A stretch of DNA of 32,665 bases, from contig VAXR01000070.1 of assembly GCA_005885165.1 (NCBI GenBank), positions 1 through 32,665 of the forward strand. The letters are read 5' to 3'. Made by a program: the position numbers and the translations under genes. Below, one piece after another: positions 2,063 to 21,707 of this stretch. The number at the start of each line of letters is the position of its first letter. Within the stretch, counting starts at the first letter, position 1. This stretch comes from Actinomycetota bacterium. Lineage in GTDB: Bacteria; Actinomycetota; Thermoleophilia; Solirubrobacterales; Thermoleophilaceae. The notes beneath the pieces are model-generated. The model saw only the letters and a program-made list of their open reading frames with translations. It was not told the DNA's origin and ran no database searches.

Positions 2063-3367
2063 TTGCCGGTCGGTAGGGCGCCCCAGATCGCGCGGCGCCT
2101 GCTCACCGCTGGGGCGATCGCCCTGGCGATCTTGGTCGTCGCGCTGCTCATCTTCGGATCGGGCCCGTCCTACAGCGTCCACGCGACGCTCGACAACGCG
2201 AGCCAGCTGATCGCGGGGGACCAGGTGAAGGTGGGCGGCGTGCCGGTCGGATCGGTCGACGACATCACGCTCGATTCCCACGGACGCGCGCGGCTCACCC
2301 TCTCGATCGACGACTCGTCGCTCGTGCCGCTTCACCGCCCGAGCCAGGTCGAGGTGCGCTCCGTGGGGCTCGCGAGCATCGCGGGCCGCTACGTAACGCT
2401 CACGCCGGGGCCGAGGAACGGCCCGAAGATCAGGAACGGCGGGGAGATCGGCGCCGACAACGCCCAATCCGAGGTCGACCTCGACGAGGTGCTGAACTCG
2501 CTCGACCCGGGGACGCTCGGCGACCTGCGGGCCGCGATCCGGGGCCTCAGCAGGACCAGCGGCGGCCAGGCCCCGCAGGAGTTCAACGCGGCGCTGCACG
2601 ACCTCAACCCCGCGCTCTCGCAGACTGCGGCGACGGCTGCCGAGATCGTCCGGGACCAGCCGCGATTCGAGCGCTTCCAGCGGCTCGTCCCCGCGACCGG
2701 CCAGACGCTGTCCGCGATCGCCTCGCAGACCGCGGCGCTCGACGACTCGCTGCGCAGGTTCCCCTCCACCTTGCGCGAGGCCAACACGACGCTCGTGAAC
2801 CTCCGGAGCACGATCGCCGACGTCCGCCCGGCCGTTCGCGAGGCGCGTCCGGTCGCCCCGCTCCTGAACGAGTTCCTCACGCGCCTGCAGCCGGTTGCCG
2901 AGCAGGGGGTCGAGGTGGTGCCGGCCCTGCGGGCCCTGATCGACAGCCCGGGCCCGCTCGACCTGCTCGGCGTGCTGCGCACGCTGCCGTCGCTCGAGAG
3001 CGTGGCCGTGCCGGCGTTCGCGTCGGGCGTGAAGACGACAAAGCTCGGACTGCCGATCCTCGACGAGCTGCGCCCCTACACGCCCGACTTCTTCGGTGGC
3101 CAGATCAACGGCTTCGGCGGCACGACGAGCACGTACTACGACGCCAACGGCCGCTACGCCCGGATCTCGTTCGAGGGAAGCGGCTACACGCTCAACAACC
3201 AAGGCACGCTCGTGCCCCTGCCACCCTCGCAGCCGGGCCTCACCGGCTACCGCAAGGGGCTCCTGCGCCGCTGCCCGGGTGCTGCGACGCAGACCGCGCC
3301 CGACAAGTCGAACCCCTGGCTGCCGCGGCCGAACTTCCCGTGCCGGCTGGCGGACTCGCCGCGATGA
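2063..3367 (+). CDS. MCE/MlaD family protein (1 of 6)
   Basis: N-terminal TM then YSVHATLDNASQLIAGDQVKVGGVPVGSVDDITL (MCE domain); TTG start with GGGAGGAG upstream. Confidence 0.88.
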   Translation: MPVGRAPQIARRLLTAGAIALAILVVALLIFGSGPSYSVHATLDNASQLIAGDQVKVGGVPVGSVDDITLDSHGRARLTLSIDDSSLVPLHRPSQVEVRSVGLASIAGRYVTLTPGPRNGPKIRNGGEIGADNAQSEVDLDEVLNSLDPGTLGDLRAAIRGLSRTSGGQAPQEFNAALHDLNPALSQTAATAAEIVRDQPRFERFQRLVPATGQTLSAIASQTAALDDSLRRFPSTLREANTTLVNLRSTIADVRPAVREARPVAPLLNEFLTRLQPVAEQGVEVVPALRALIDSPGPLDLLGVLRTLPSLESVAVPAFASGVKTTKLGLPILDELRPYTPDFFGGQINGFGGTTSTYYDANGRYARISFEGSGYTLNNQGTLVPLPPSQPGLTGYRKGLLRRCPGAATQTAPDKSNPWLPRPNFPCRLADSPR

Positions 3368-4794
3368 AGCGCCTCCTCGCGATCGCGGTTGCCGGGCTCG
3401 CCGCCTTGGTGGCCGTTTTGCTGACTATCGGGGCCGGCGGCGGCTCGGGCGACTACCGCGTCGACGCGATCTTCGACAGCGCGGACTTCCTGATCTCGGG
3501 CCAGGACGTGAAGGTGGCCGGAGCGCGCGTCGGCCAGGTGACCAAGGTCGCGCTCACGAACGATCGCAAGGCGCGCATCGAGATGCAGATCGTGCCCGGC
3601 TTCGCCCCCTTCCGGGCCAACGCCAGCTGCTCGATCCGCCCGGCGAGCCTGATCGGCGAGAAGTTCGTGCAGTGCGATCCGGGGACGCCCGATGCGGCCC
3701 CGCTCACGGCGCCGCACGGGCGCGCGCCGACCGTCCCGATCTCGCACAACCACTCCCCGGTGGACCTGGACCTCGTGTTCACGGCGCTGAGGCAGCCGAT
3801 TCGCGAGCGGCTCTCGATCATCATCAGCGAGCTGGGTGCCGGTCTGGCGGGTCACCCGGCCGAGCTGAGCGCCGCGATCCGCCGGGCGAACCCCGCGCTC
3901 GAGCAGGCGAACCGCACGCTGGCGATCCTCGACTCGGAGCGATCCACGCTCGGGCGGCTGATCGACTCGTCCGACACCGTCCTCCGCGAGCTCGCGGCCA
4001 GGAGCGGCGACGTGGGCGGGTTCATCGCGCATGCGAGCCACGTGAGCGACACCGTGGCCTCGCGCACGGGCGACCTCGCGCTGGCGATCCACCGCCTCCC
4101 GCCTCTCCTCGCGCAGCTCGAGCCGGCCTCGGAGGAGCTCGGGGGCTTCGCCACCGACGCTCGGCCGGTCGTGCGCGCGCTGGGCGCCGCGGCGCCGCAG
4201 CTTCGCGACGTCCTGGGCGACCTTCCCCCGCTCGAGGCAGCGGCGCGTCCCACCCTCGTCAAGCTCTCGGCGCTTTCCGCGGCCGGACTGCACGCGGTGC
4301 GCGAGACCCAGCCACTGGCCGACCTGCTCGATCCCGTCTCGCGCAAGCTGCCGCCCGCCGTCGCGCTCGTAAAGGGCCTGGTCGACTCGCTGATCGCACG
4401 CGGGGTCCCGGAGGGGATCGGGCGCTTCGTGTGGCTCTCGGTGGCGGCGACGGGGCGCTTCGACCAGATCTCGCACGTGCTCCCGTCATACCAGCTAGGG
4501 GGTACGTGCAACACGTACGCGACGACCCCGACGGCGGGCTGCTCGGCCCACTTCAGCGGCGTGGGGAAGGGCGCGCCGAACAACGGCGGAAGCACGGCGG
4601 CGGGGGCGCCGGCCGGCGGGGGAACCGCCGGTTCCGCGAGTGGCGCCCGCGACAACCGCACCCCGGCCGAGCGCCGGAGGGATCGCCGGCTCGCGCAGCA
4701 GGCCGCCCAATCTGCTGCGCACAGCATCCCGGGAACGCACGCGCCGCCGGTGCCCAACCCGGGCAACCTCCTCAACTGGCTGCTGCCGCCATGA
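3364..4794 (+). CDS. MCE/MlaD family protein (2 of 6)
   Basis: YRVDAIFDSADFLISGQDVKVAGARVGQVTKVAL; ATGA overlap with previous stop. Confidence 0.88.
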   Translation: MKRLLAIAVAGLAALVAVLLTIGAGGGSGDYRVDAIFDSADFLISGQDVKVAGARVGQVTKVALTNDRKARIEMQIVPGFAPFRANASCSIRPASLIGEKFVQCDPGTPDAAPLTAPHGRAPTVPISHNHSPVDLDLVFTALRQPIRERLSIIISELGAGLAGHPAELSAAIRRANPALEQANRTLAILDSERSTLGRLIDSSDTVLRELAARSGDVGGFIAHASHVSDTVASRTGDLALAIHRLPPLLAQLEPASEELGGFATDARPVVRALGAAAPQLRDVLGDLPPLEAAARPTLVKLSALSAAGLHAVRETQPLADLLDPVSRKLPPAVALVKGLVDSLIARGVPEGIGRFVWLSVAATGRFDQISHVLPSYQLGGTCNTYATTPTAGCSAHFSGVGKGAPNNGGSTAAGAPAGGGTAGSASGARDNRTPAERRRDRRLAQQAAQSAAHSIPGTHAPPVPNPGNLLNWLLPP

Positions 4795-6173
4795 GCCGAC
4801 GTTCGCAGCCAAGCATCGCGGGTTCGCCGATCCTGATCGGCGCCGTGACCGTGCTGGTCACGGTCGTCGCGGTGCTCCTCTCCTACAACGCGAACTCGGG
4901 CCTGCCGTTCGTCCCGACCTACCACATCAAGGCCGAGGTGCCGGACGCCGCGGGCCTCATCGAGGGCAACGAGGTTCGCATCGGCGGCAAGCGCGTAGGG
5001 ACGATCGACGGCATCACCGGCAAGGTCGGCCCGCACGCGCCGTACGCCGTGCTCGCGCTGAAGCTCGACAAGACCGTCCAGCCGTTGCGCGACGACTCCC
5101 AGCTCACGGTCCGCCCGCGATCGCCGCTCGGGCTCAAGTACCTCGAGCTCGTTCCCGGCCGGCACGGCCGCCCGCTGAACGAGGGCGGGAAGCTCTCTCT
5201 CGTCCACGCGCGGCGGAGCGTGGAGCTCGACGAGGTGATCAACACCTTCGACGCCCAGACCCGCGCCGCGATTCAGCGCACGACGTTCGAGTTCGGAACC
5301 GGCCTGGCCGGTAGGGGGATCGACTTCAACCGCTCGCTCGCGTCGGCGCCCGTGCTGCTCCTCCATCTCGAGCACGTCGCCGCGACGCTCGCGGACCCGC
5401 GCACCGGCTTGCGGCAGACGCTCCGTGCGGTGGCTGCCGTGGCCGGTCAGCTCGCACAGGTGAGCCCGCAGCTCGGCTCGCTCTTCACGGCGGCGGACCG
5501 CACGTTCGCGGCGCTCGACTCGGTGCGGCCGGCCATCGCCGCTACGCTGGACGAGCTTCCGGGCACCGAGCTCACCGCGATCACCGCGCTGGCTGCCGCG
5601 CGACCGGTGCTCCACGATGCGCGCGGCCTGGTGCACGACCTGCGCCCTGGGATCGGCGTCCTGCCGCTCGCCGCGGGCCGCCTGCACCTGGCGCTCCAGC
5701 GCGGGATCCCGGTGCTCGGCCACGCAGGTCCGCTGTACGACCGGGTGCGCTCGGCGCTCGACGCCCTCGAGGCGCTCGCGGCGGATCCGCTGGTCAGGAG
5801 CGCGGTGAGGCGGCTCAACGTGGCGCTCGAGTCGGCGATACCGACGGTGCGCTTCGTCGCTCCGGCGCAGATCCGCTGCAACTACCTCGGGGTGTACCTG
5901 CGCAACGAGGCGTCCACGATCGCCGAAGGCGACGACGCCGGAACCTGGCTCCGGACGCTGACGATCTCCCAGACCAACCAGTTCCACGCGCGGTCGTCGC
6001 CGTCGCCCGACCTGCATACGAACCCCTACCCGTACACCGCGGCGCCCGGCCAGCACGGACTGTGCGAGGCCGGCAACGAGCCGTACCTGCCGGGGCAGCG
6101 GTTCGGCCACGTCCCCGGAGTGACCGCCCACTACACAGAGGACACGTCGCCTCCGCCGGGGGTGGGCCGGTGA
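4791..6173 (+). CDS. MCE/MlaD family protein (3 of 6)
   Basis: YHIKAEVPDAAGLIEGNEVRIGGKRVGTIDGI; ATGA overlap with previous stop. Confidence 0.88.
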   Translation: MSRRSQPSIAGSPILIGAVTVLVTVVAVLLSYNANSGLPFVPTYHIKAEVPDAAGLIEGNEVRIGGKRVGTIDGITGKVGPHAPYAVLALKLDKTVQPLRDDSQLTVRPRSPLGLKYLELVPGRHGRPLNEGGKLSLVHARRSVELDEVINTFDAQTRAAIQRTTFEFGTGLAGRGIDFNRSLASAPVLLLHLEHVAATLADPRTGLRQTLRAVAAVAGQLAQVSPQLGSLFTAADRTFAALDSVRPAIAATLDELPGTELTAITALAAARPVLHDARGLVHDLRPGIGVLPLAAGRLHLALQRGIPVLGHAGPLYDRVRSALDALEALAADPLVRSAVRRLNVALESAIPTVRFVAPAQIRCNYLGVYLRNEASTIAEGDDAGTWLRTLTISQTNQFHARSSPSPDLHTNPYPYTAAPGQHGLCEAGNEPYLPGQRFGHVPGVTAHYTEDTSPPPGVGR

Positions 6174-7573
6174 GCTGGTGGGATCGCATCCGAGGCCGGC
6201 GGACGCCGATCACCGCGTTCCGGGCGGGGCTCATCACCATCGCCCTCACGACGATCGCGGTCTACTTCGCGTTCGGCGGCGCGCTGCCGTGGCAGAGCAG
6301 CTTCCAGCTCCGCGCGGTGGTGACCTCGGCCAACCAGCTGCACTCCCGCACGCCCGTGCGGATCGCCGGGATCGACGTCGGCCACGTGGAGTCGATCAAG
6401 CGCGGGCCCGGCCGCTTCGCCACCGTGACGATGGCGCTGCAGGACCGCGCGCTCCCGATCCACGCCGACGCCACGCTGAAGGTCCGCCCGCGCATCTTCC
6501 TGGAGGGCAACTTCTTCATCGACCTCCAGCAGGGGACGCCCGCGGCGCGGACGGTCGGCTCGGGCTACGAGATCCCGCTCTCGCAGACGGCGGTCCCGGT
6601 CCAGCTCGACCAGGTCCTCGACGTGCTGCGCCGCGGCACCCGCGACAACCTGGTCTCGCTCGTCCACGAGGTCGCCGCCGCCCTCGACCACGGCGGGGGC
6701 GACGCGATCCGCGAGTCACTCCAGTACTGGGAGCCGACCTTCCGCAACGGCGCGATCGCGGCTGAGGCGTTTCGCGGTGAGCACGCGCACGATCTCTCGG
6801 GGTCGATTGCCGGCCTCGAGCGGATCGCGGGCGCGCTGGCACGCCACCGCACGCAGCTGGCCTCGCTGATCTCCGGGCTGGACGCGACGGTGGAGGCGCT
6901 GGCGTCACAGCGGTCGGCGCTCGCTCAGTCCGTCCCCGAGTTCGACACGTTGCTGCGCGAGGCCGAACCCACCTTCGTCACGCTGAACGACCTCTTCCCG
7001 ACCGCCCGGGCGTTCGTCCGCGAGGCGCGGCCGGGCATACGCGCCGCGCCCGCGACGCTCGAGGTCGCGAACCCGCTGCTTGCGCAGCTCGAGGGCCTCC
7101 TCTCGCCGTCCGAGCTCCCGCAGCTCGTGGACGTCGGCACCCCCGCGATCCGCACGCTCGCCCGCGCCCAGCCGCATCTGCGGACGATCCTGAAGCTGCT
7201 GACGCCGGTCACGGAGTGCCTGCGCCGCGACGTCGTCCCCACGCTGAAGACGCCCGTCCAGGATCCGCCGCACACCACCGGCGATCCGCCCTACCGCGAG
7301 CTGCTGCACGCCTGGATCGGCCTGGCGAGCCTGTCGCAGAACTTCACGGGCGACGGGCCCTCCGTCCGCTACCACGCCGGGTTCGGCGACCAGACCATCC
7401 TCACCGGCAACATCCCGAGCGAGGGGCAGCCGCTCGTCGGGCTCACGCAGACCAAGCTCCTCGGCTCGCGGCCGCGCTACACGGGCGTGCAGCCGCCGCT
7501 CAAGCCGAAGGCCCCCTGCTCGAAGCAGAAGCGGCCCAACCTCCACGCCGAGACCGGGCCAGCGGAGCAGTAG
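6170..7573 (+). CDS. MCE/MlaD family protein (4 of 6)
   Basis: FQLRAVVTSANQLHSRTPVRIAGIDVGHVESI; GTGA overlap with previous stop. Confidence 0.88.
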   Translation: MSWWDRIRGRRTPITAFRAGLITIALTTIAVYFAFGGALPWQSSFQLRAVVTSANQLHSRTPVRIAGIDVGHVESIKRGPGRFATVTMALQDRALPIHADATLKVRPRIFLEGNFFIDLQQGTPAARTVGSGYEIPLSQTAVPVQLDQVLDVLRRGTRDNLVSLVHEVAAALDHGGGDAIRESLQYWEPTFRNGAIAAEAFRGEHAHDLSGSIAGLERIAGALARHRTQLASLISGLDATVEALASQRSALAQSVPEFDTLLREAEPTFVTLNDLFPTARAFVREARPGIRAAPATLEVANPLLAQLEGLLSPSELPQLVDVGTPAIRTLARAQPHLRTILKLLTPVTECLRRDVVPTLKTPVQDPPHTTGDPPYRELLHAWIGLASLSQNFTGDGPSVRYHAGFGDQTILTGNIPSEGQPLVGLTQTKLLGSRPRYTGVQPPLKPKAPCSKQKRPNLHAETGPAEQ

Positions 7574-7575
7574 AC

Positions 7576-8994
7576 GTGCTGAGCCTCCGCAGAATCGCGC
7601 GGCAGTACCTCCAGCACCTCATGGCGCTCGCCGCGATGGTGGGGTTGGCCCTGGCGGTGACGGTCTACGTGACCGTCCACGAGCGCCTCCGCTTCCCGTG
7701 GCAGCACGAAACGCGCATCTACGCCGAGTTCCAGAACGCCCAGTCGGTGACGCCCGGGCAGGGGCAGACCGTGGACGTGGCGGGCGTGCAGGTCGGCGAG
7801 ATCGGCGGCGTCACGCTGAAGGACGGGCGCGCGGTCGTGGAGCTCGACATCGAGTCGCACGTGCCGGGCGGCATGTTCCGCAACGCGCACCTGCAGCTGC
7901 GCCCGAAGACCGGCCTCAACGACATGGCGATCGAGATGGACCCGGGCCGGCCCGACCCGTCGCTGCCGGACAAGGGCCGCCTGCACGACGGGGATCACCT
8001 GCCGATCGAGAACACGCGGCCGAACGTGAACTCCGACGAGGTGCTGGCCGCGCTGGACGCCGACACACGGCAGTACCTGGCGGCGTTCGTGGACGCCGGC
8101 GGCCAGGGGCTGCGCGGGCGGGGGGCCGACCTCCGCCGCGTGCTGCAGGCCAGCCAGCCGACGTTCGCGCGGTCCGCACGGATCGGGCGGGCGGTGGCCG
8201 ACCGGCGCGCGAAGGTGCGGCGGCTCGTGACCAACCTAAAGCGCCTGGCGTTCGCCGCGGCGGTCAAGGACAAGGAGCTCGGCCGTCTGGTCGACTCCTC
8301 GTCGGCGATCTTCGGGACGATCGCGAGCCGCGACGCGGACCTCCGGGCGGCGGTCAGCCGCCTTCCGGGCGCGCTGCACGCGACCAGCAGCGCGCTGGCC
8401 GCCACGCGCGGGCTTGCGCTCGACGCACGGCCCGCTCTCAGCGCGTTGATCCCCGTGGCAGACGAGCTGACGCCGGCGCTCGTTCGCTCGCGGCCGCTGC
8501 TGCGCGACGCGACGCCGGTCATCGCCAACGGGGTGCGCCCACTGGTCCGCGCCGCGATCCCGCTGCTCCGCAAGCTCGGCCCCGAGCTCGCGCGGGTCGA
8601 CACCACGACGCCGGGGCTCGTGGACGCGGGACACGCACTGAACCACGTGGTGAACGAGCTCGCCTACAACCCGCCGGGCAAGGAGGAGGGCTACCTCTTC
8701 TGGCTTCCCTGGTTCGTGCACAACTCGAACTCGGTCGTCTCGATCGAGGACGCACACGGGGCCGCGTTCCGCGGACTCGTGCTCTTCGGCTGCTCGAGCG
8801 TTCCCTCAGTCCTCGCCGCCAACCCTGCGCTCCTCCCGTTCTTCCAGCTCCCGCTGTGCCCGAAGCACCCGAGCCCGCCGCGCGCGCAGCCCGGCACGCC
8901 CGACCAGATCCGGCGCACGATCGAGCGCTGGGCGCGCGGGCTGACGGCGCACCGCAAGGGCGCTCAGGCGCGGGCGAAGGGGGTGCATCGCTAG
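7576..8994 (+). CDS. MCE/MlaD family protein (5 of 6)
   Basis: TRIYAEFQNAQSVTPGQGQTVDVAGVQVGEIGGVTL; GTG start 2 nt after previous stop. Confidence 0.88.
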   Translation: MLSLRRIARQYLQHLMALAAMVGLALAVTVYVTVHERLRFPWQHETRIYAEFQNAQSVTPGQGQTVDVAGVQVGEIGGVTLKDGRAVVELDIESHVPGGMFRNAHLQLRPKTGLNDMAIEMDPGRPDPSLPDKGRLHDGDHLPIENTRPNVNSDEVLAALDADTRQYLAAFVDAGGQGLRGRGADLRRVLQASQPTFARSARIGRAVADRRAKVRRLVTNLKRLAFAAAVKDKELGRLVDSSSAIFGTIASRDADLRAAVSRLPGALHATSSALAATRGLALDARPALSALIPVADELTPALVRSRPLLRDATPVIANGVRPLVRAAIPLLRKLGPELARVDTTTPGLVDAGHALNHVVNELAYNPPGKEEGYLFWLPWFVHNSNSVVSIEDAHGAAFRGLVLFGCSSVPSVLAANPALLPFFQLPLCPKHPSPPRAQPGTPDQIRRTIERWARGLTAHRKGAQARAKGVHR

Positions 8995-10392
8995 ATGACG
9001 AAGCGCCCGCCCTCCCTCGTCCAGATCGCGGTGATGGTCGCCTTCGCGCTGTCGTGCCTCGGAATCCTCCTGTACGTCTGGCAGTCGTTCGGCGGCCAGA
9101 TCCCGCTCGCGCCGAAGGGGTACCGCGTGGTGGCCGGCTTCAACGAGGCGACGACGCTCTCGGACACCGCCGAGGTGCGGATCTCGGGCGTCCGGGTCGG
9201 CCGCGTCGTTTTGCTGTCCGAGCACGGTGGCCGGACCCAGGCGACGATGCAGATCGACCCGCGCTACGCGCCGATCGCGCGCGACACACGGGCGATCCTG
9301 CGGCTGAAGACGCTGCTCGGCGAGACCTACATCGAGCTGACGCCGGGCGACCGCCGTTCCGGCCTCCTGCCGGACGGCGGCAGGATCCCGAACACGCAAA
9401 TAGGGAGCACGACCGAGCTCGACGAGGTGACCCGCGCGCTCGACGCGCGCACGCGCCGCGATCTCCAGCACTTCCTGCACGGCCTCGCGGTCGGGCTCGC
9501 CGGCAGGGGTCAGGACCTGAACGACGCGCTGGGGAACCTCCCACCGTTCACCGACAGCACCACCGCGCTGCTCCGGGCGCTCGACTCCCAGGACCGCGCG
9601 GTGCGGAAGCTCGTCTCCGACAGCGGCGTGGTCTTCGGCGCGCTCGGTCGCCGCCAGGGCGAGCTAGCCGGGCTGATCCAGGCCGGCGACCGCGTCCTGT
9701 CGACGACGGCGGCCCGCGATCGCGACCTCGCCGAGACCGCGCGGATCCTCCCCGTCACGCTCGCGGAGCTGAGGCCCACGCTCGAGCAGGTGCGCCTCCT
9801 GTCGGGCGAGGCCGCGCCGGTCGTTCACGACCTGCGCCCAGGCGCCCGCGCGCTGGCCCCGGCGCTTCAGGACATCGCCGTGCTGTCGCCCCAGCTATAC
9901 GGCCTCTTCGGCGACGTCGACAAGGTGATCGCGGCATCGAAGCGGGGCGCGCCCGCCCTGACCGCGGTCGTTCGCGCCGCGCATCCGGCGCTGCGGCTCC
10001 TGGTCCCGCTCCTGCGCGAGGCGCAGCCGGTCGTGGACTACCTCGGCCTCTACAAGGAGGAGCTCGTCTCCCAGATCGCCGGCGTGGCAGCGGCGACTCA
10101 GGCGTCGGCGCCGGTGGGCACGGGCCAGTCGCTTCATTACGCGCGAGTGATCGTGCCGTTCACGGCGGAGGGCGCGGCCGCCCAGTACAAGCGCCTCACG
10201 ACCAACCGGCACAACCCGTACTTCCTCCCGCTGGCGCTGAACCGGCTGAAGCAGGCGCTCCTTTCCTTCGACTGCTCGAACGTGAAGAACGGCAACCCCG
10301 GCTTCGAGCAGGCGCCCCCGTGCCTCGTTCAGCCGCCATTGCACTTCCGCGGACGCGCCACCGCCTACCCGCACGTGCACAAGGACAAGTAG
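8995..10392 (+). CDS. MCE/MlaD family protein (6 of 6)
   Basis: YRVVAGFNEATTLSDTAEVRISGVRVGRVVLL; ATG directly abuts previous stop. Confidence 0.88.
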   Translation: MTKRPPSLVQIAVMVAFALSCLGILLYVWQSFGGQIPLAPKGYRVVAGFNEATTLSDTAEVRISGVRVGRVVLLSEHGGRTQATMQIDPRYAPIARDTRAILRLKTLLGETYIELTPGDRRSGLLPDGGRIPNTQIGSTTELDEVTRALDARTRRDLQHFLHGLAVGLAGRGQDLNDALGNLPPFTDSTTALLRALDSQDRAVRKLVSDSGVVFGALGRRQGELAGLIQAGDRVLSTTAARDRDLAETARILPVTLAELRPTLEQVRLLSGEAAPVVHDLRPGARALAPALQDIAVLSPQLYGLFGDVDKVIAASKRGAPALTAVVRAAHPALRLLVPLLREAQPVVDYLGLYKEELVSQIAGVAAATQASAPVGTGQSLHYARVIVPFTAEGAAAQYKRLTTNRHNPYFLPLALNRLKQALLSFDCSNVKNGNPGFEQAPPCLVQPPLHFRGRATAYPHVHKDK

Positions 10393-14789: not shown

Positions 14790-16349
14790 ATGGCGACCGT
14801 CGAGCAGAAGTCCGTCGAGGCGACGCAAAACGGAGGTGCCGACGGGCGGACGTTTGCCGTTGACAACCCGGCCACGGGGGAGCACATCATCCGTCTGCCG
14901 GACATGGACGCCGGGCGGGTGCGCGAGCTCGTCGCGCGCGCGCGCGAGGCCCAGAAGGCGTGGGCGGAGCAGAGCTTCGACGACCGCGCGGCGGTGATGT
15001 ACCGCGCCCGGCAGTGGATGGTCGACAACCGCGAGCGAATCGCGAAGACCGTCATGGAGGAGAACGGCAAGACGCGCGAGGACGCGATGCTGGCCGACGT
15101 CTTCACGACCGCGGACGCGCTCGGCTTCTGGGCGAAGAAGGCGTCCGTGTACCTGGCCGATGAGCGCGTGCGTTCGCACTCGCCGTTCGTGATCGGCCGC
15201 AAGCTCATCGTTCGCTACCGGCCCCGCGGCGTTGTCGGGGTGATCGGGCCGTGGAACTACCCGATCGCCAACTGCTTCGGCGATGCGATCCCCGCGCTCA
15301 TGGCGGGCAACTCGGTGGTGCTCAAGCCGAGCGAGGTGACGCCGATCTCCTCGCTGCTGATGGAGGAGGGGATGCGCGCCGCCGGCCTGCCCGAGGACGT
15401 GATGCTCGTCGCGACGGGCACCGGCGAGACGGGCGCCGCGCTGATCGACGAGGTCGACATGGTCATGTTCACCGGATCGACCCGCACCGGCAAGAAGATC
15501 ATGGGTCGCGCGTCCGAGACGTTGACTCCCGTCTCGCTCGAGCTCGGTGGCAAGGATCCGATGATCGTGCTGCGCGACGCCGACCTCGAGCGCGCCGCCA
15601 ACACGGCCGTGTACTGGGGAATGGCCAACGGAGGCCAGATCTGCATGTCCGTCGAGCGCGTATACGTCGAGGAGCCGGTCTACGACGAATTCGTGGCCAA
15701 GGTGATCGAGAAGACCCGGGCGCTCCGGCAGGGCAAGCCCGAGGGACCGGGGTCGGTGGAGGTCGGGGCCGTGACGTTCGCTCCCCAGGTCGAGATCATC
15801 GAGCGCCATATCCGCGACGCGGTCGACAAGGGCGCACAGGTGCAACTGGGCGGGAAGGTCGCCGACGGCCCAGGTCGCTACTTCCAGCCGACGGTCCTCA
15901 CGGACGTCGACCACTCGATGCAGATCATGACCGAGGAGACGTTTGGCCCAACGCTGCCGATCATGAAGGTTCGCGACGAGCACGAGGCGCTGCGCTATGC
16001 GAACGACTCGCGCTACGGCCTGAACTCGAGCGTGTTCACGCGCGATCTCGAGAAGGGCGAGCGGATCGCACGCCAGCTCACGGCGGGCAGCGCCTGCGTC
16101 AACGACGCGGTGATGAATTACGCGGCCACGGAGCTGCCTTTCGGCGGCACCGGGGAGTCCGGGATCGGCTACCGGCACGGAGCCGCGGGCATCCAGAAGT
16201 ACTGCGAAGTGCAGGCGCTGATGGTCACCCGATTCGCGCCGAAGAAGGACACGTTCATGTTCCCCTACGCTCCGGCGCGCAGCAGGCTGGTGGAACGGCT
16301 GTCGGTGCTCCTGTACGGACGGGTGCCGCGGAAGTACCGCGACCGCTAG
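14790..16349 (+). CDS. NAD(P)-dependent aldehyde dehydrogenase
   Basis: GPWNYPI, FTGSTRTGKKIM, LELGGKDPMIV, GQICMSVERVYV; SD-like GAGGAGG upstream. Confidence 0.93.
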   Translation: MATVEQKSVEATQNGGADGRTFAVDNPATGEHIIRLPDMDAGRVRELVARAREAQKAWAEQSFDDRAAVMYRARQWMVDNRERIAKTVMEENGKTREDAMLADVFTTADALGFWAKKASVYLADERVRSHSPFVIGRKLIVRYRPRGVVGVIGPWNYPIANCFGDAIPALMAGNSVVLKPSEVTPISSLLMEEGMRAAGLPEDVMLVATGTGETGAALIDEVDMVMFTGSTRTGKKIMGRASETLTPVSLELGGKDPMIVLRDADLERAANTAVYWGMANGGQICMSVERVYVEEPVYDEFVAKVIEKTRALRQGKPEGPGSVEVGAVTFAPQVEIIERHIRDAVDKGAQVQLGGKVADGPGRYFQPTVLTDVDHSMQIMTEETFGPTLPIMKVRDEHEALRYANDSRYGLNSSVFTRDLEKGERIARQLTAGSACVNDAVMNYAATELPFGGTGESGIGYRHGAAGIQKYCEVQALMVTRFAPKKDTFMFPYAPARSRLVERLSVLLYGRVPRKYRDR

Positions 16350-16543: not shown

Positions 16544-16568
16544 TACTGAACGGTTAGTCAGTTAGAGT
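16544..16568 (+). promoter_or_regulatory. candidate promoter with operator-like inverted repeat (ACTGA-N9-TCAGT) ahead of a TAGAGT -10-like hexamer
   Basis: actgaacggttagtcagttagagt; arms ACTGA (16544-16548) and TCAGT (16558-16562), TAGAGT 16563-16568. Confidence 0.4.
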
Positions 16569-16586: not shown

Positions 16587-18515
16587 GTGCAGATGAAGCG
16601 ATCAGTTCGCCGTGCCGTTCAGACCCTTCTCATGTCGGGCTTCGTGCTCGCCACCGCTCTGGCGCTGGCCCCGAATGCGCTCGCGGCCGGATCGCCGCCC
16701 GCCGGCGGCGCCGCGATCGGCCAGGTGATCGCCGCAACGCTCGGCGCGACCGTCGCGACCTTCGCTCTCCTGTGGGTGATCTCCGCCCACCGCAGCGGGC
16801 GGATCGCGTGGTTGGGGCGGCTGGCCGGCCTGGGAGAGCGCCTCACCGGGCTTCCGGGCTGGGCCTCGATCCCCGCGTCGGTCCTCGGGGGGAGCCTGCT
16901 GATCGCGGTGTTCGGGATGTACTGGGACATCTCGCTTCACCTCGACAATGGCCGCGACCCCGGACCGCTGGCCAATCCCGCCCACTACTTCATCCTCGTC
17001 GGCCTCTTCGGCGTATTCGCGTGCGGCGCTCTGACCCTGGCGCTTGCCGACTCGAAGCCGAGCAACGTCGCGAAACGACTCACCACCGAGTGGTGGGCGC
17101 CGCTCGGCGGCATCCTGATCCTGGTCTGCTCGGCGGTCTCGCTGCTGGCGTTCCCGCTCGACGACATCTGGCATCGCCTGTTCGGCCAGGACGTGACCCT
17201 CTGGGGTCCGACCCACCTGCTGCTCTTCGGCGGCGCGAGCTTCTCGATCATCGGGCTCTGGGTGCTGCAGGTCGAGGGGGCGAAGGAGCACGGGCACTCA
17301 CCGCTCGCCACCACGCGGCTCCAGCGTTTCCGCGACCTCAGCCTCGCGGGCAGCCTGCTCGTCGGCATGTCCACCTTCCAGGGGGAGTTCGACTTCGGCG
17401 TTCCCCAGTTCCGTCTCGTGTGGCAGCCGGTCCTGATCGCGCTTGCTGCGGGTATCGCGCTGGTCACCGCCCGCGTGCGCCTGGGCCGCGGTGGTGCGTT
17501 CGCCGGCGTCGCGTTCTTCCTCGCCCTGCGCGGGTTCCTGGCCCTGATGGTCGGCCCGATCCTCGGGCAGACGACCCCGCACTTCCCGCTCTACATCGCC
17601 GAGGCGGCGTGCGTCGAGCTCGTCGGCCTCCGCATTGGCCGGCGCCGGCCGATCGCGCTCGGAGCCGTCTCCGGCCTCCTGATCGGGACGGTCGGATTCG
17701 CGGCCGAGTACGGCTGGTCGCACGTCTGGAGCTACAACCCCTGGCCGCCGTCGCTGCTTTCAGAGGCGATCCCGGTTGCGATCGTCGCCGGGCTCGCGGG
17801 CGGTGTCCTCGGAGGCTTCGTCGGCAGGTCGCTGACGCCGGCGGCCGCGGGGGAGCGCGCGCCGCGCTGGGCGGTCCCCGCCGCCGCCGCGGCCGTTGTC
17901 GGCCTCGTGGCGTGGTGCCTGCCTATGCCCGTCCCCGCGCATCCGCCGAGCGCGACGATCGCCTTGCACAACGTGCCCGGTGCGGGCCCGACGCGCAAGG
18001 TCGCGGCCACGATCCGCCTGCATCCGCCGGACGCGGCGAAGAACGCGCGCTGGCTCACCGTCACCGCGTGGCAGGGCCACGGCGCCGTCGTCGACCGGCT
18101 GAAGAAGATCGGGCCGGGCGTCTACCGCACCGCGCACGAGATCCCGGTGTCGGGACCGAAGTGGAAGTCGACGCTCCGGCTGCAGAGAGGGCGCGAAGTG
18201 CTCGGGCTTCCGATCTACATGCCCGCCGATTCCGCGATCCCGGTGAAGGGGATCCCCGCGCTCGCGCACTTCACCCGCCCGTTCGAGCGGGACCAGAAGC
18301 TCCTCCAGCGGGAGCAGAAGCCGGGTGTCTCCCCGATCCTGACCACCGCTGCGTATCTCGTGGTGCTGGCGGTGGGGCTCGCCGTGATCGCGCTGCTGGC
18401 CTGGGGCCTGCGGCGGATCTCCGCCGAGATCGGCACGCTGCCACCGCGGCCGCGGCGACGGGAGGCAGCTCGCGTCGCACCGGCCGCGGGTGGACCGCGC
18501 GTGGGCGCCGCGTAA
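16587..18515 (+). CDS. polytopic membrane protein with C-terminal extracytoplasmic domain, unknown function
   Basis: Many hydrophobic segments; WDISLHLDNGRDPGPLANPAHYFILVGLFG, FPLDDIWHRLFGQDVTLWGPTHLLL; GAGAGGAG upstream of GTG 16587 (ATG at 16593 is an alternative start). Confidence 0.85.
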   Translation: MQMKRSVRRAVQTLLMSGFVLATALALAPNALAAGSPPAGGAAIGQVIAATLGATVATFALLWVISAHRSGRIAWLGRLAGLGERLTGLPGWASIPASVLGGSLLIAVFGMYWDISLHLDNGRDPGPLANPAHYFILVGLFGVFACGALTLALADSKPSNVAKRLTTEWWAPLGGILILVCSAVSLLAFPLDDIWHRLFGQDVTLWGPTHLLLFGGASFSIIGLWVLQVEGAKEHGHSPLATTRLQRFRDLSLAGSLLVGMSTFQGEFDFGVPQFRLVWQPVLIALAAGIALVTARVRLGRGGAFAGVAFFLALRGFLALMVGPILGQTTPHFPLYIAEAACVELVGLRIGRRRPIALGAVSGLLIGTVGFAAEYGWSHVWSYNPWPPSLLSEAIPVAIVAGLAGGVLGGFVGRSLTPAAAGERAPRWAVPAAAAAVVGLVAWCLPMPVPAHPPSATIALHNVPGAGPTRKVAATIRLHPPDAAKNARWLTVTAWQGHGAVVDRLKKIGPGVYRTAHEIPVSGPKWKSTLRLQRGREVLGLPIYMPADSAIPVKGIPALAHFTRPFERDQKLLQREQKPGVSPILTTAAYLVVLAVGLAVIALLAWGLRRISAEIGTLPPRPRRREAARVAPAAGGPRVGAA

Positions 18516-18528
18516 TACCCTCGTGGGC

Positions 18529-19116
18529 GTGGCCCGGCACTGGAAGCTGCGAGCCGGCACCCTCCTTGCGGCGGGCGCGTACGGGCTGCACCAGCTGCGC
18601 TACCTGCTCGCGTACGGGAGCGACTCCCACCATGAGCTCGCGTCCCAGGGCCACGCCTACCTGACTTTCGTCGCCCCGCTCCTCGCGGTGCTGGTCGTGC
18701 TGTCCGTGCTGGAGCTGGTCCTTCGGATCGCGGGCGCCCGAACGGAGGTCGGCCACCCGCGTGCGCCACGCCTCCGCGTGCTGTGGAGTGCAGCCGCCGC
18801 CGCGCTGCTGGGCTCTTACTCGGCTCAGGAGCTCGTCGAGGGCGCCGTGAGCCGCGGCCACGCCGCCGGGCTTGCGGGCGTCTTCGCCCACGGTGGATGG
18901 GTGGCGATCCCGCTCGCGATCGTCCTGGGTCTCTTCGTCGCGCTGCTGCTCCGCGGCGCCGCGCGCGTGCTCGAGCTTGCCTCCGAGGCCCAGCTCAGAA
19001 TCGCACCGCCGCAGCCGTTCCTCCCGATCCGCCGGTCGCGACGCGCATGCGCCGAGGCCGGCTCCGTCCTCGCCCGCCACATCGGCGGCCGCGGCCCTCC
19101 GCTCCCCTCCGTCTAG
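18529..19116 (+). CDS. polytopic membrane protein, unknown function
   Basis: VARHWKLRAGTLLAAGAYGLHQLRYLLAYG...; several hydrophobic segments; GTG start with TACCCT 7 nt upstream. Confidence 0.7.
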   Translation: MARHWKLRAGTLLAAGAYGLHQLRYLLAYGSDSHHELASQGHAYLTFVAPLLAVLVVLSVLELVLRIAGARTEVGHPRAPRLRVLWSAAAAALLGSYSAQELVEGAVSRGHAAGLAGVFAHGGWVAIPLAIVLGLFVALLLRGAARVLELASEAQLRIAPPQPFLPIRRSRRACAEAGSVLARHIGGRGPPLPSV

Positions 19117-19174
19117 CGATTTTCCTGCGCCCCACCGCACGGTGCGGCGCCACTTCGACTTACGGAGGTTCGGG

Positions 19175-19537
19175 ATGAGTCAGCAGGGTCGCAAGATCGC
19201 TGCAGGGCTCGCGGTGCTGGTGGCCCTCTCGGGGCTGCTGGTCGCGGGTTGCGGCACTGGAGCCAAGCTCACCAAGGGGCCGGTCCACATCGTCGTGAAG
19301 AACGCCAAGCCGGTCGGCGGCGTGAAGGACATCACTGTGAAGAAGGGCAAGCCGGTGGGCTTCTCCGTCACGTCGGACGTGGCCGACGAGATCCACGTCC
19401 ACGGCTACAACTACCACAAGGATGTGAAGAAGGGCGGGACGATCAGCTTCGACTTCCCCGCGAAGATCGACGGCAACTTCGTCATCGAGCTGGAGAGCCG
19501 CAGCGAGCAGATCGCATCGCTGACGGTTGAGCCGTGA
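19175..19537 (+). CDS. cupredoxin-like lipoprotein
   Basis: Lipobox-like LLVAGC; beta-rich domain with DEIHVHGYNYHKDVKKGGTISFDF; SD-like GGAGG upstream. Confidence 0.8.
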   Translation: MSQQGRKIAAGLAVLVALSGLLVAGCGTGAKLTKGPVHIVVKNAKPVGGVKDITVKKGKPVGFSVTSDVADEIHVHGYNYHKDVKKGGTISFDFPAKIDGNFVIELESRSEQIASLTVEP

Positions 19538-20919
19538 AACGCCGGCGGGCGGCCGCGGCCGTCGCGCTCGTGACCGTCGCCGCGGCGGGCATCTGGCCCG
19601 CCGCGGCACTCGCCCACGGGCTCGTCGGACGGGCCGACCTGCCGATCCCGCCCTACCTGTTCGGCTGGGCGGCGTCGATCGTGCTCGTCGTGTCGTTCAT
19701 TGCCCTGGCCGCTCTGTGGAAGCAGCCCCGGCTCGAGGACGCGCGTGAGCGGCGGATCTTCGACATGCCGCGAATGGTCGACCCGCTCTGCGGGCTCATC
19801 GGCGTCGCGCTCTTCGGCATCGCGATCTACGCCGGGCTCGACGGGACGAAGGAGTCGAACCAGAACCTGCTCCCGAACCTCGTGTACGTGCACTTCTGGG
19901 TCGGGTTTGTGCTGGCGAGCGTGATCCTCGGCGACGTGTTCCGGGTGTTCAACCCGTGGCGTGCGATCGCGCGGGCCGTCGGCTGGGTGTCAGGCAGGCT
20001 CGGGATCCGGTCGCCCCTGAGGCGCGAATACCCGGAGAAGCTCGCGTGGCTCGAGCTCGTTTACACGCAGAAGGCCAACCCCCGGATCCTGGTCTGGATC
20101 TCGATCGGGTATGCGGTCGTCCAGCTGGCGGCGATGGCCGTCTACGGAGTGGAGCGGTGGACGCAGGACGGCGACGCGTTCTCCGTCTACTTCAACCTCT
20201 TCAGCCGGATCTCGGTGTTCGTGAAGCGCGGCCGCACGGTCTACCTGAGGCCGCTCCTATCGGGCGTCACCGACATGCCGCTGAAGCCGGGCTCGGTCGC
20301 ACTGCTGTGCGCGGCCATTGGATCGACCACGTTCGACGGGGCCTCGAACGGGCCCCTGTGGGCTTCGCTGAACCCGGACCTCCAGAGCTTCTTCAAGACT
20401 CTCGGGGCGTCTGCGAACGTGAAGATCGAGCTCGCCGGGACGGTGGGCCTGGCGGCCTGCGTGGCCGCGGTCGGGCTCTTCTACCACCTCGGCGTGCGCG
20501 GGATGCGGACGGTGGGCCGAGGGCACACCACGAGGGAGCTGGCCCGGCGCTTCGCGCACACGCTCGTGCCGATCATGTTCGCGTACGCGCTGGCGCACTA
20601 CTTCTCGCTGCTGATCTATCAGGGCCAGGCGGCCGGGTACCTGGCCTCCAACCCACTCGGCAACGGGAGCAACCTGTTCGGGACGGCGCACTGGGGTATC
20701 AACTACGGGGTGATCTCGGGCGCCGGCATCTGGTACGTGCAGGTTGGGGCGCTGATCGCCGGGCACGTGAGCGGGCTGACGCTCGCCCACGACCGCGCGC
20801 TCACCGTCTACCAGCGCCTTCGCGACGCGACCCGCTCGCAATACTGGATGCTGGTGGTGATGGTCGGTTTCACGAGCCTCGGGCTCTGGCTCCTGTCGGC
20901 GGTGCGCGGCGCCGGATGA
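19534..20919 (+). CDS. polytopic membrane protein (resembles actinobacterial proteins annotated, without strong support, as 'fenitrothion hydrolase')
   Basis: AHGLVGRADLPIPPYLFGWAASIVLVVSFIAL; His-containing helices VYVHFWVGFVLA, AYALAHYFSLLIYQG, TAHWGINYGVISG; ATGA-type overlap (GTGA) with previous stop. Confidence 0.8.
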   Translation: MKRRRAAAAVALVTVAAAGIWPAAALAHGLVGRADLPIPPYLFGWAASIVLVVSFIALAALWKQPRLEDARERRIFDMPRMVDPLCGLIGVALFGIAIYAGLDGTKESNQNLLPNLVYVHFWVGFVLASVILGDVFRVFNPWRAIARAVGWVSGRLGIRSPLRREYPEKLAWLELVYTQKANPRILVWISIGYAVVQLAAMAVYGVERWTQDGDAFSVYFNLFSRISVFVKRGRTVYLRPLLSGVTDMPLKPGSVALLCAAIGSTTFDGASNGPLWASLNPDLQSFFKTLGASANVKIELAGTVGLAACVAAVGLFYHLGVRGMRTVGRGHTTRELARRFAHTLVPIMFAYALAHYFSLLIYQGQAAGYLASNPLGNGSNLFGTAHWGINYGVISGAGIWYVQVGALIAGHVSGLTLAHDRALTVYQRLRDATRSQYWMLVVMVGFTSLGLWLLSAVRGAG

Positions 20920-21065
20920 TGACGCCTCCGATCGCGCACTTCGGGCACTGGTACATCTCGCTGCCGGTGTTCATGGGCCCGGTCGTCGCGCTGTTCGGCT
21001 ACATCTACCTGCAGGAATGGCGCAACAAGCGCCGCGAGCGAAAGAAGTCGAAGAAGGGGGCCTGA
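20916..21065 (+). CDS. 49-aa single-TM membrane peptide
   Basis: MMTPPIAHFGHWYISLPVFMGPVVALFGYIYLQEWRNKRRERKKSKKGA; overlaps previous stop (ATGATGA). Confidence 0.65.
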   Translation: MMTPPIAHFGHWYISLPVFMGPVVALFGYIYLQEWRNKRRERKKSKKGA

Positions 21066-21707
21066 CTAGGCCGGCTGCTCCTCCTCCTCGAGCTCGTCCT
21101 CCTCGCGCCCCATGCGGCGGTAGCTGACCACCGCGAGGCCGATCGCGAGCAGCACCAGCGGGCCCGCGAAGATGAGGGCAGACGATCCGCCCGAGCCGCC
21201 CCCGCTGCCCTTGAAGCTGCCGATCTTGTGGCCGGCGGCGGCAGCTAGGCGCTGGACGGCTTTGACCGCGGTGTTCGCCATCCCGTCCGCACCCTGCTCG
21301 ACGGTGATCCCCTTCGCCGCCGCGGTCGCCTTCGGACCTACCTGGTAGGTGCCCAGCCCGTTCGGCATCACGACGATCAGCGGCTGCGGCTTGCTGAAGC
21401 TGAGCTCCGCCCCTAGGTAGCGCGCGTAGGGCTGGGGCTTGTTGAAGAAGTCGGGGACGCCGCCGAGGTCATCGGGGGTCGCGATGATCGCGATCTTGAT
21501 CGGGAAGCCGGCCTTTGCCGCCGCGGCGGTCACCCCGCGCAGCTCCTCCTGCTTCGACGTCGATATCCGCGGCTGGTAGGGCACGAACACGTTCTGCACG
21601 GGCAGGACGTCGCTGGCCGGGTCGGCATCGCCCAACGCGACGGCCGCGCCGCCGATCGCCACGGCGGCGAAAACCGCGGCGGCGAGCAAAGTGGTCCGCT
21701 TCAGCAC
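21066..21707 (-). CDS. membrane-anchored exported protein, possibly TPM-domain-like
   Basis: Signal peptide, LRGVTAAAAKAGFPIKIAIIATPDDLG...LIVVMPNGLGTYQVG, C-terminal TM and acidic tail; GTG start with TACGCT 6 nt upstream. Confidence 0.65.
   Translation of the reverse strand: MLKRTTLLAAAVFAAVAIGGAAVALGDADPASDVLPVQNVFVPYQPRISTSKQEELRGVTAAAAKAGFPIKIAIIATPDDLGGVPDFFNKPQPYARYLGAELSFSKPQPLIVVMPNGLGTYQVGPKATAAAKGITVEQGADGMANTAVKAVQRLAAAAGHKIGSFKGSGGGSGGSSALIFAGPLVLLAIGLAVVSYRRMGREEDELEEEEQPA

Follow-up and report, generated by a model that had tools for sequence, protein, structure and literature searches.

Five Genes at the Locus

The window analysed here, a stretch of 32,665 nucleotides, comes from a soil-dwelling Actinomycetota bacterium of the family Thermoleophilaceae (GenBank assembly GCA_005885165.1, contig VAXR01000070.1; C196 in our numbering, within an assembly of 2.66 Mb and 240 contigs). 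Between positions 16587 and 21065 it carries five genes, designated A to E. The main finding, missed by an original prediction made from the nucleotide letters, is that the product of gene A, judged by its sequence, retains both copper sites of PmoC/AmoC, the subunit holding the CuC and CuD sites in the copper membrane monooxygenases (CuMMOs). The genes are arranged as follows:

16587..18515, + strand: gene A, 642-aa PmoC/AmoC-like polytopic protein with a C-terminal extracytoplasmic beta-domain
18529..19116 (open reading frame opens at 18490), + strand: gene B, His-bearing polytopic protein of up to 208 aa
19175..19537, + strand: gene C, 120-aa lipoprotein, lipobox LVAGC, weakly cupredoxin-like, putative copper carrier
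19534..20919, + strand: gene D, 461-aa polytopic protein with conserved H28, H355, H411, H419, M439 and M443
20916..21065, + strand: gene E, 49-aa peptide with a single transmembrane (TM) segment and the motif AH-x2-HW

Examination of the open reading frames (ORFs) bore out the five same-strand genes of the original prediction, together with its overlaps of exactly 4 nt between C and D and between D and E. The start of B is uncertain, as a GTG at 18490 would imply a 26-nt overlap with A and the GTG at 18529 better fits the relatives. These relatives comprised metagenome-assembled genomes and isolates named Solirubrobacterales/Thermoleophilaceae, and among them each of the five proteins has a conserved family. 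No Pfam or NCBIfam family reached its cut-off for any of the five, and sequence-profile searches of the PDB with A and D gave no meaningful match to solved structures. This lack of assignable families, together with the occurrence of D near SCO1, CtaG, YcnI/CopC and CopCD genes (see below), agrees with the earlier view of an undescribed membrane system for a metal, most likely copper.

Putative Copper Sites of Gene A

CuMMOs drive methane and ammonia oxidation, and the copper site responsible for their chemistry has been disputed. Recent work favours CuC/CuD of PmoC over CuB of PmoB as the reaction site; in M. capsulatus PmoC, CuC is formed by Asp156, His160 and His173 and CuD by Asn227, His231 and His245, with Arg165 as a further residue (PMC12576850). 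The CuD site has been reported not to be universal among CuMMOs (PMC9038741). The corresponding features of A are:

16926..16985, + strand: CuC-like site, D114-x3-H118-x4-R123-D124-...-H133, invariant in 42 homologues, equivalent to PmoC D156/H160/R165/H173
17160..17216, + strand: CuD-like site, D192-D193-x-W-H196-...-P208-T-H210, invariant except for W195 in 42 homologues, equivalent to PmoC N227/H231/H245
17949..18281, + strand: extracytoplasmic beta-domain (residues ~455-565), AlphaFold2 (AF2) model with mean predicted local distance difference test (pLDDT) of 88

Exactly four histidines are invariant among the 42 A homologues, namely H118, H133, H196 and H210, and throughout this family an Asp lies four residues before the first His of each pair, with Arg-Asp at +5/+6 of H118. 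The Asp-x3-His...His arrangement of CuC is found in A as D114/H118/H133, R123 matching Arg165 of PmoC, and the Asn-x3-His-x13-His arrangement of CuD as D192/H196/H210, with equal spacing and Asp replacing Asn. In the window protein the loop of the first triad has two additional residues (H-x14-H versus H-x12-H in PmoC); a relative from S. mirabilis has the exact PmoC spacing. XmoC follows the same pattern (D141-H145-R150-D151-H158 plus N215-H219-H233 in one actinobacterial XmoC), and a phylum-level relative of A (locus L208) displays the canonical PmoC wording, DVSWHIDFGRDEFLFTPSH...DELWHRNYGVDVTMWGPTH versus DGTWHMTVIRDTDFTPSH...NEWGHTFWFMEELFVAPLH of PmoC in PDB entry 4phz.

In the AF2 model of A (pLDDT 88) both triads are placed at helix ends within four consecutive helices: D114/H118 end the first and H133 starts the second, and D192/H196/H210 are distributed in the same way over the third and fourth. 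Basic loops of A at 70-90 and 154-172 suggest that both sites face outward. The model also contains the beta-domain that had been predicted for the 642-aa polytopic protein. The proposed likeness of this tail to FixH, YtkA or CopC is weakly supported: among hidden Markov models, YtkA matched 2/42 members (best E=0.021) and FixH 1/42 (E=0.38).

Relationship of A to PmoC/AmoC/XmoC

A regular expression describing both sites matched 58 of the 62 A proteins; the other ORFs, 14,220 in number, gave six matches, each to a genuine XmoC. For profile comparison by hhalign, A was reduced to its TM core, cut around the motifs, a choice that favours a match and for which shuffles and decoys served as control. 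Against PmoC, with both sites in register each time, the core scored 29.5 for all A proteins (P=0.002), 39.1 for the distant, phylum-level members (P=6.6e-5) and 40.4 for the distant FTPxH subset (P=3.7e-5). The controls against the same profile stayed lower: at most 22.1 for 60 column shuffles, 20.5 for the reversed profile, 17.7 for D and at most 19.1 for 16 decoy families. With a larger XmoC set, P ranged from 0.0064 to 1.6e-4, all A proteins scoring 25.9 (P=0.0064) and the phylum-level members 35.1 as compared with 26.3 for 150 shuffles; addition of viral PmoC sequences made the match no stronger (score 35.1, P=2.4e-4). Homology of the TM core to known XmoC is thus well supported at profile level, and A is very probably a distant homologue of PmoC/AmoC.

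Several observations weigh against this assignment. The hhalign probabilities were just 14-71%, or 6-51% with the larger PmoC set, and a first full-length comparison of A with XmoC was not significant (P=0.4), its best segment being the CuC motif; significance was therefore reached only with the TM core and the more distant members. Neither A nor the family members scanned matched the Pfam AmoC model (PF04896), and the Asn of CuD in PmoC is Asp in A. Foldseek searches of the A model in the PDB and BFVD gave no significant match and retrieved no PmoC, so that the PmoC fold of A has no independent confirmation. Size and architecture also differ, PmoC having ~250 aa and A 642 aa with extra helices and the fused beta-domain. 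A match of the S. mirabilis relative to Acyl_transf_3 lay below the Pfam cut-off and was treated as chance.

The modest profile-profile probabilities and the empty Foldseek result would also be compatible with A being a membrane oxidoreductase that uses iron or zinc instead of copper and carries D-x3-H...H motifs which came to resemble those of PmoC by convergence; metal identity cannot be told from sequence. Such convergence would nevertheless have to reproduce two D/N-x3-H...H triads in equal order and near-identical spacing, an Arg five residues after the first His, details such as RD and P-x-H, and a location of the ligands at helix ends. Among the background ORFs the signature of the two sites marked true XmoC only. 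This explanation is accordingly considered improbable.

An XmoC Homologue without XmoA and XmoB

A search of 37 A-bearing genomes for the partner subunits XmoA (PF02461) and XmoB (PF04744) detected neither, although the same two models detected both proteins in three xmo genomes used as positive control. The idea that A belongs to a whole CuMMO (an XmoCAB holoenzyme) was consequently rejected, and A is classed as an XmoC homologue rather than as a CuMMO. The absence of partners also speaks against an enzymatic role for A, as discussed below. No A-like, free-standing XmoC family was found described in the literature searched, outside which subscription papers largely fell.

At eight A loci a small, single-TM, E-like peptide follows A with a 4-nt overlap. 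By description, E can be likened to the archaeal AmoX/AmoY/AmoZ (PMC10030591), small TM proteins that accompany an AmoC-type enzyme, E itself being a 49-aa single-TM peptide with AHxxHW. In Mycobacterium and Rhodococcus, small single-TM peptides with an LAHG motif (LAHGGQ) are encoded downstream of xmoB (L175, L176, L178) and are possible small CuMMO subunits. An N-terminal "AHG" recurs in D (window positions 19615-19617), in E-like peptides, in some A proteins (L208, L214) and in XmoB.

Genomic Context of A and a Shared Operator

Gene context was counted within 6 kb of 41 order-level A loci and 62 D loci. The surroundings of A are rich in catabolic and regulatory genes that are rare or missing around D: MerR regulators, of a long type of ~250 aa (13/41 versus 1/62), flavin monooxygenases of the FMO/BVMO type (10/41 versus 0/62), a/b-hydrolases (7/41 versus 0/62), acyl-CoA dehydrogenases (7/41 versus 3/62), TetR regulators (6/41 versus 0/62) and aldehyde dehydrogenases (4/41 versus 1/62). 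Copper genes are rare at the same 41 loci (SCO1 at one, CtaG at none). In the phylum-level relative mentioned above, A and a short-chain dehydrogenase form a single 848-aa ORF (L208:5178-7724, genome G324; adh_short, 5.8e-37). Upstream of A the window itself contains:

14790..16349, + strand: aldehyde dehydrogenase gene (Aldedh, E=3.4e-142)
16545..16562, unstranded: TetR-type operator ACTGAACGGTTAGTCAGT, from comparison with genome G169

An aldehyde dehydrogenase gene likewise precedes A in G169, which is of the same genus (locus L056), and there the operator is identical amid otherwise diverged upstream DNA. The site emerged from this comparison, an inverted-repeat finder having returned nothing at it. 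Both genomes have a related second operator, flanked by a TetR gene and an a/b-hydrolase gene; at L312 (~5715-5740; G000:C185:8717-8738) the operator that precedes A is shared by the TetR gene and the divergent hydrolase gene. The hydrolase linked to this operator is 62% identical to one whose gene overlaps A by 4 nt in L057. A TetR may bind upstream of A. The TetR ORF of G000 is short, with 126 aa versus 215 aa in G169, and is possibly frameshifted.

These contexts bear on whether A is an enzyme at all. The main rival explanation holds that A is PmoC-like yet non-enzymatic, a copper-binding membrane protein for storage, relay or sensing in copper homeostasis, with C-D-E in the same pathway. 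Besides the missing XmoA and XmoB, it draws on two relatives of A that sit among copper-homeostasis genes, which count against an oxidising role: on the plasmid of M. vanbaalenii JOB5, A lies beside CopC and near other copper and oxidase-assembly genes, and the distant A of S. mirabilis has in its vicinity genes for a cupredoxin, a P-type metal ATPase and a protein with a heavy-metal-associated domain. Against this stand the 41 order-level loci, with their organic-catabolism genes and TetR or long MerR regulators and almost no copper genes, the fusion of A to a dehydrogenase, and the operator common to A and a hydrolase gene. A purely copper-binding role is rather unlikely on this evidence, and the best inference from context, held at slightly better than even, is that A acts as an oxidising enzyme. 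A fragmented A-family copy with stops occurs at G228:C1:819921-821244, in a genome that has a fuller copy elsewhere.

The C-D-E Cassette

Throughout the order C, D and E occur together as one unit, which B often precedes. B (18 members; called at 10/62 D loci) has invariant residues including H34, H55, Q113, E114, E117, R201, P203 and P204. C (33 members) has an invariant H74-x-H76-G77 and E105. The original prediction had seen in C a cupredoxin-like lipoprotein with a possible part in electron transfer. The likeness persists as a weak similarity to Cupredoxin_1, below the Pfam cut-off (E=0.0076, 16.7 bits versus 27), but a type-1 Cys is missing, the sole Cys of the window protein being that of the lipobox. 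With H74, H76 and E105 as invariant potential ligands and no such Cys, C is unlike an electron-transfer cupredoxin and is more likely a copper carrier than an electron carrier.

In the 56-57 homologues of D, H28, H355, H411 and H419 are conserved, and an MxxxM motif (M439, M443) lies in the last helix. The AF2 model of D is confident (pLDDT 91), and its fold search against the PDB gave no match. A histidine brace, with a mature N-terminal His left by signal-peptide cleavage, was considered since A27-H28 is nearly invariant, yet the idea is weakened by orthologues of Mycobacterium, Rhodococcus and Pseudonocardia that start just a few residues before H28. Proteins like D are said to bear the label "fenitrothion hydrolase", already doubted in the original prediction; no hydrolase evidence was found for them, their contexts are metal-linked instead, and a literature search was uninformative. 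A distant D relative (L164:5761-7329, genome G072) joins a NapH/CcoG-like, Cys-rich N-terminal half to a D-like C-terminal half and is probably the source of a Fer4_5 match (3.3e-9). E (19 members) conserves A7, H8, H11, W12 and P22. After E, on the opposite strand, the window has a gene for a membrane-anchored protein (21066-21707) that recurs near D in relatives (cluster 27).

Among the 62 D loci, neighbours include SCO1 (15), CtaG (5), DUF1775 (YcnI)/CopC (5) and CopCD (4). With the copper-delivery proteins CopC/CopD, SCO1 and CtaG, D has this genomic association and probably extracytoplasmic His ligands in common, but no detectable kinship of sequence or fold beyond one weak CopD match in 1/56 members. 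The C-D pair also lies near the xmoCAB operons of actinobacterial BMO/HMO systems, at ~1 kb on a plasmid of M. dioxanotrophicus, ~5 kb on one of M. chubuense NBB4 and ~10 kb on one of Rhodococcus sp. ZPP, all plasmids of hydrocarbon oxidisers; of three further xmo genomes, one has D. In Mycobacterium the pair keeps the same 4-nt overlap, and these operons also include small TM peptides starting with LAHG; unlike the A loci, they encode the full three-subunit enzyme. Both kinds of neighbourhood fit copper delivery to cuproenzymes in general, and C-D-E is likely a copper supply cassette.

Linkage of A with C-D-E

Within the class, D occurs in 94 of 249 genomes and A in 39, four of the latter being marginal (E ~4e-4 to 1e-3), and A normally lies elsewhere in the genome than C-D-E. 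It adjoins the B-E genes only in the genus of the window (its own genome and G169, locus L056). A and C-D-E are therefore separable modules and not one conserved five-gene operon: the neighbourhood conservation proposed as a check by the original prediction holds for C, D and E and fails for the five as a unit.

The two modules might be unrelated neighbours, C-D-E (with or without B) being a general cassette for copper delivery and cytochrome-oxidase assembly; this is compatible with any reading of A and agrees with the frequent occurrence of C-D-E without A, near SCO1, CtaG, YcnI and CopCD, as well as with the usual separation of A. Some links between them speak otherwise. In family f35 the order is A-E-C-D at L215 and L217, with an E-like peptide in between, and A-C-D at L216; in JOB5, A and C-D are ~8-10 kb apart; E-like peptides are encoded after A in some cases and after D in others; and within the order D is present in 34 of 35 genomes with A versus 28 of 43 without it (Fisher p=0.00045, relatedness uncorrected). 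A service of C-D-E to A is plausible in the genus of the window, and a chance neighbourhood is a serious but less than even possibility. Among distant A-bearing genomes only 6 of 16 have D, which is a point against coupling the two and means that D is not obligatory for A.

Proposed Function

The explanation preferred for the locus, to which about an even chance is given, is that A represents a divergent copper protein resembling PmoC/AmoC but free-standing, most likely a membrane copper oxidase or hydroxylase acting on a hydrophobic organic substrate, with copper supplied by C-D-E. The mechanism we infer, from metal identity and copper transfer to catalysis and substrate, would begin with C, whose HxH lipoprotein may gather copper outside and pass it to D. 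The latter, through its His- and Met-bearing membrane segments, would load cuproenzymes: A in the present case, XmoCAB in mycobacteria and cytochrome oxidase in other relatives. Copper held at D114/H118/H133 and/or D192/H196/H210, on the outer membrane face, would then activate O2, and the product of A would be handed to the aldehyde dehydrogenase, short-chain dehydrogenase, flavin monooxygenase or hydrolase encoded alongside. The fused beta-domain could take over part of the role of PmoB, and E may serve A and/or D as a small membrane subunit.

A may thus be a simpler, unrecognised relative of the methane- and ammonia-oxidising enzymes, as both copper sites are kept, the other two subunits are lacking and conserved copper-handling genes are adjacent. 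In that case the superfamily would reach further than xmoCAB, and whether CuC/CuD alone can activate O2 could be tested directly in a naturally occurring relative of PmoC that has the two sites but neither PmoA nor PmoB. It would also account for conserved genes that lack annotation in many soil actinobacteria, and C-D may be a missing copper-loading system for CuMMOs. A broader and more tentative proposal, held at somewhat below even, is that actinobacteria possess a widespread family of free-standing, PmoB-less PmoC relatives that work as copper monooxygenases on larger hydrophobic substrates. Each would be a single polypeptide with a PmoC-like core and fused beta-domain, often with a small peptide at its side, and would receive its copper from a new C-D cassette that also serves classical CuMMOs.

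Elsewhere in the window, positions 2063-10392 hold a series of genes that resemble, by eye, those of MCE/MlaD-type lipid-import proteins.

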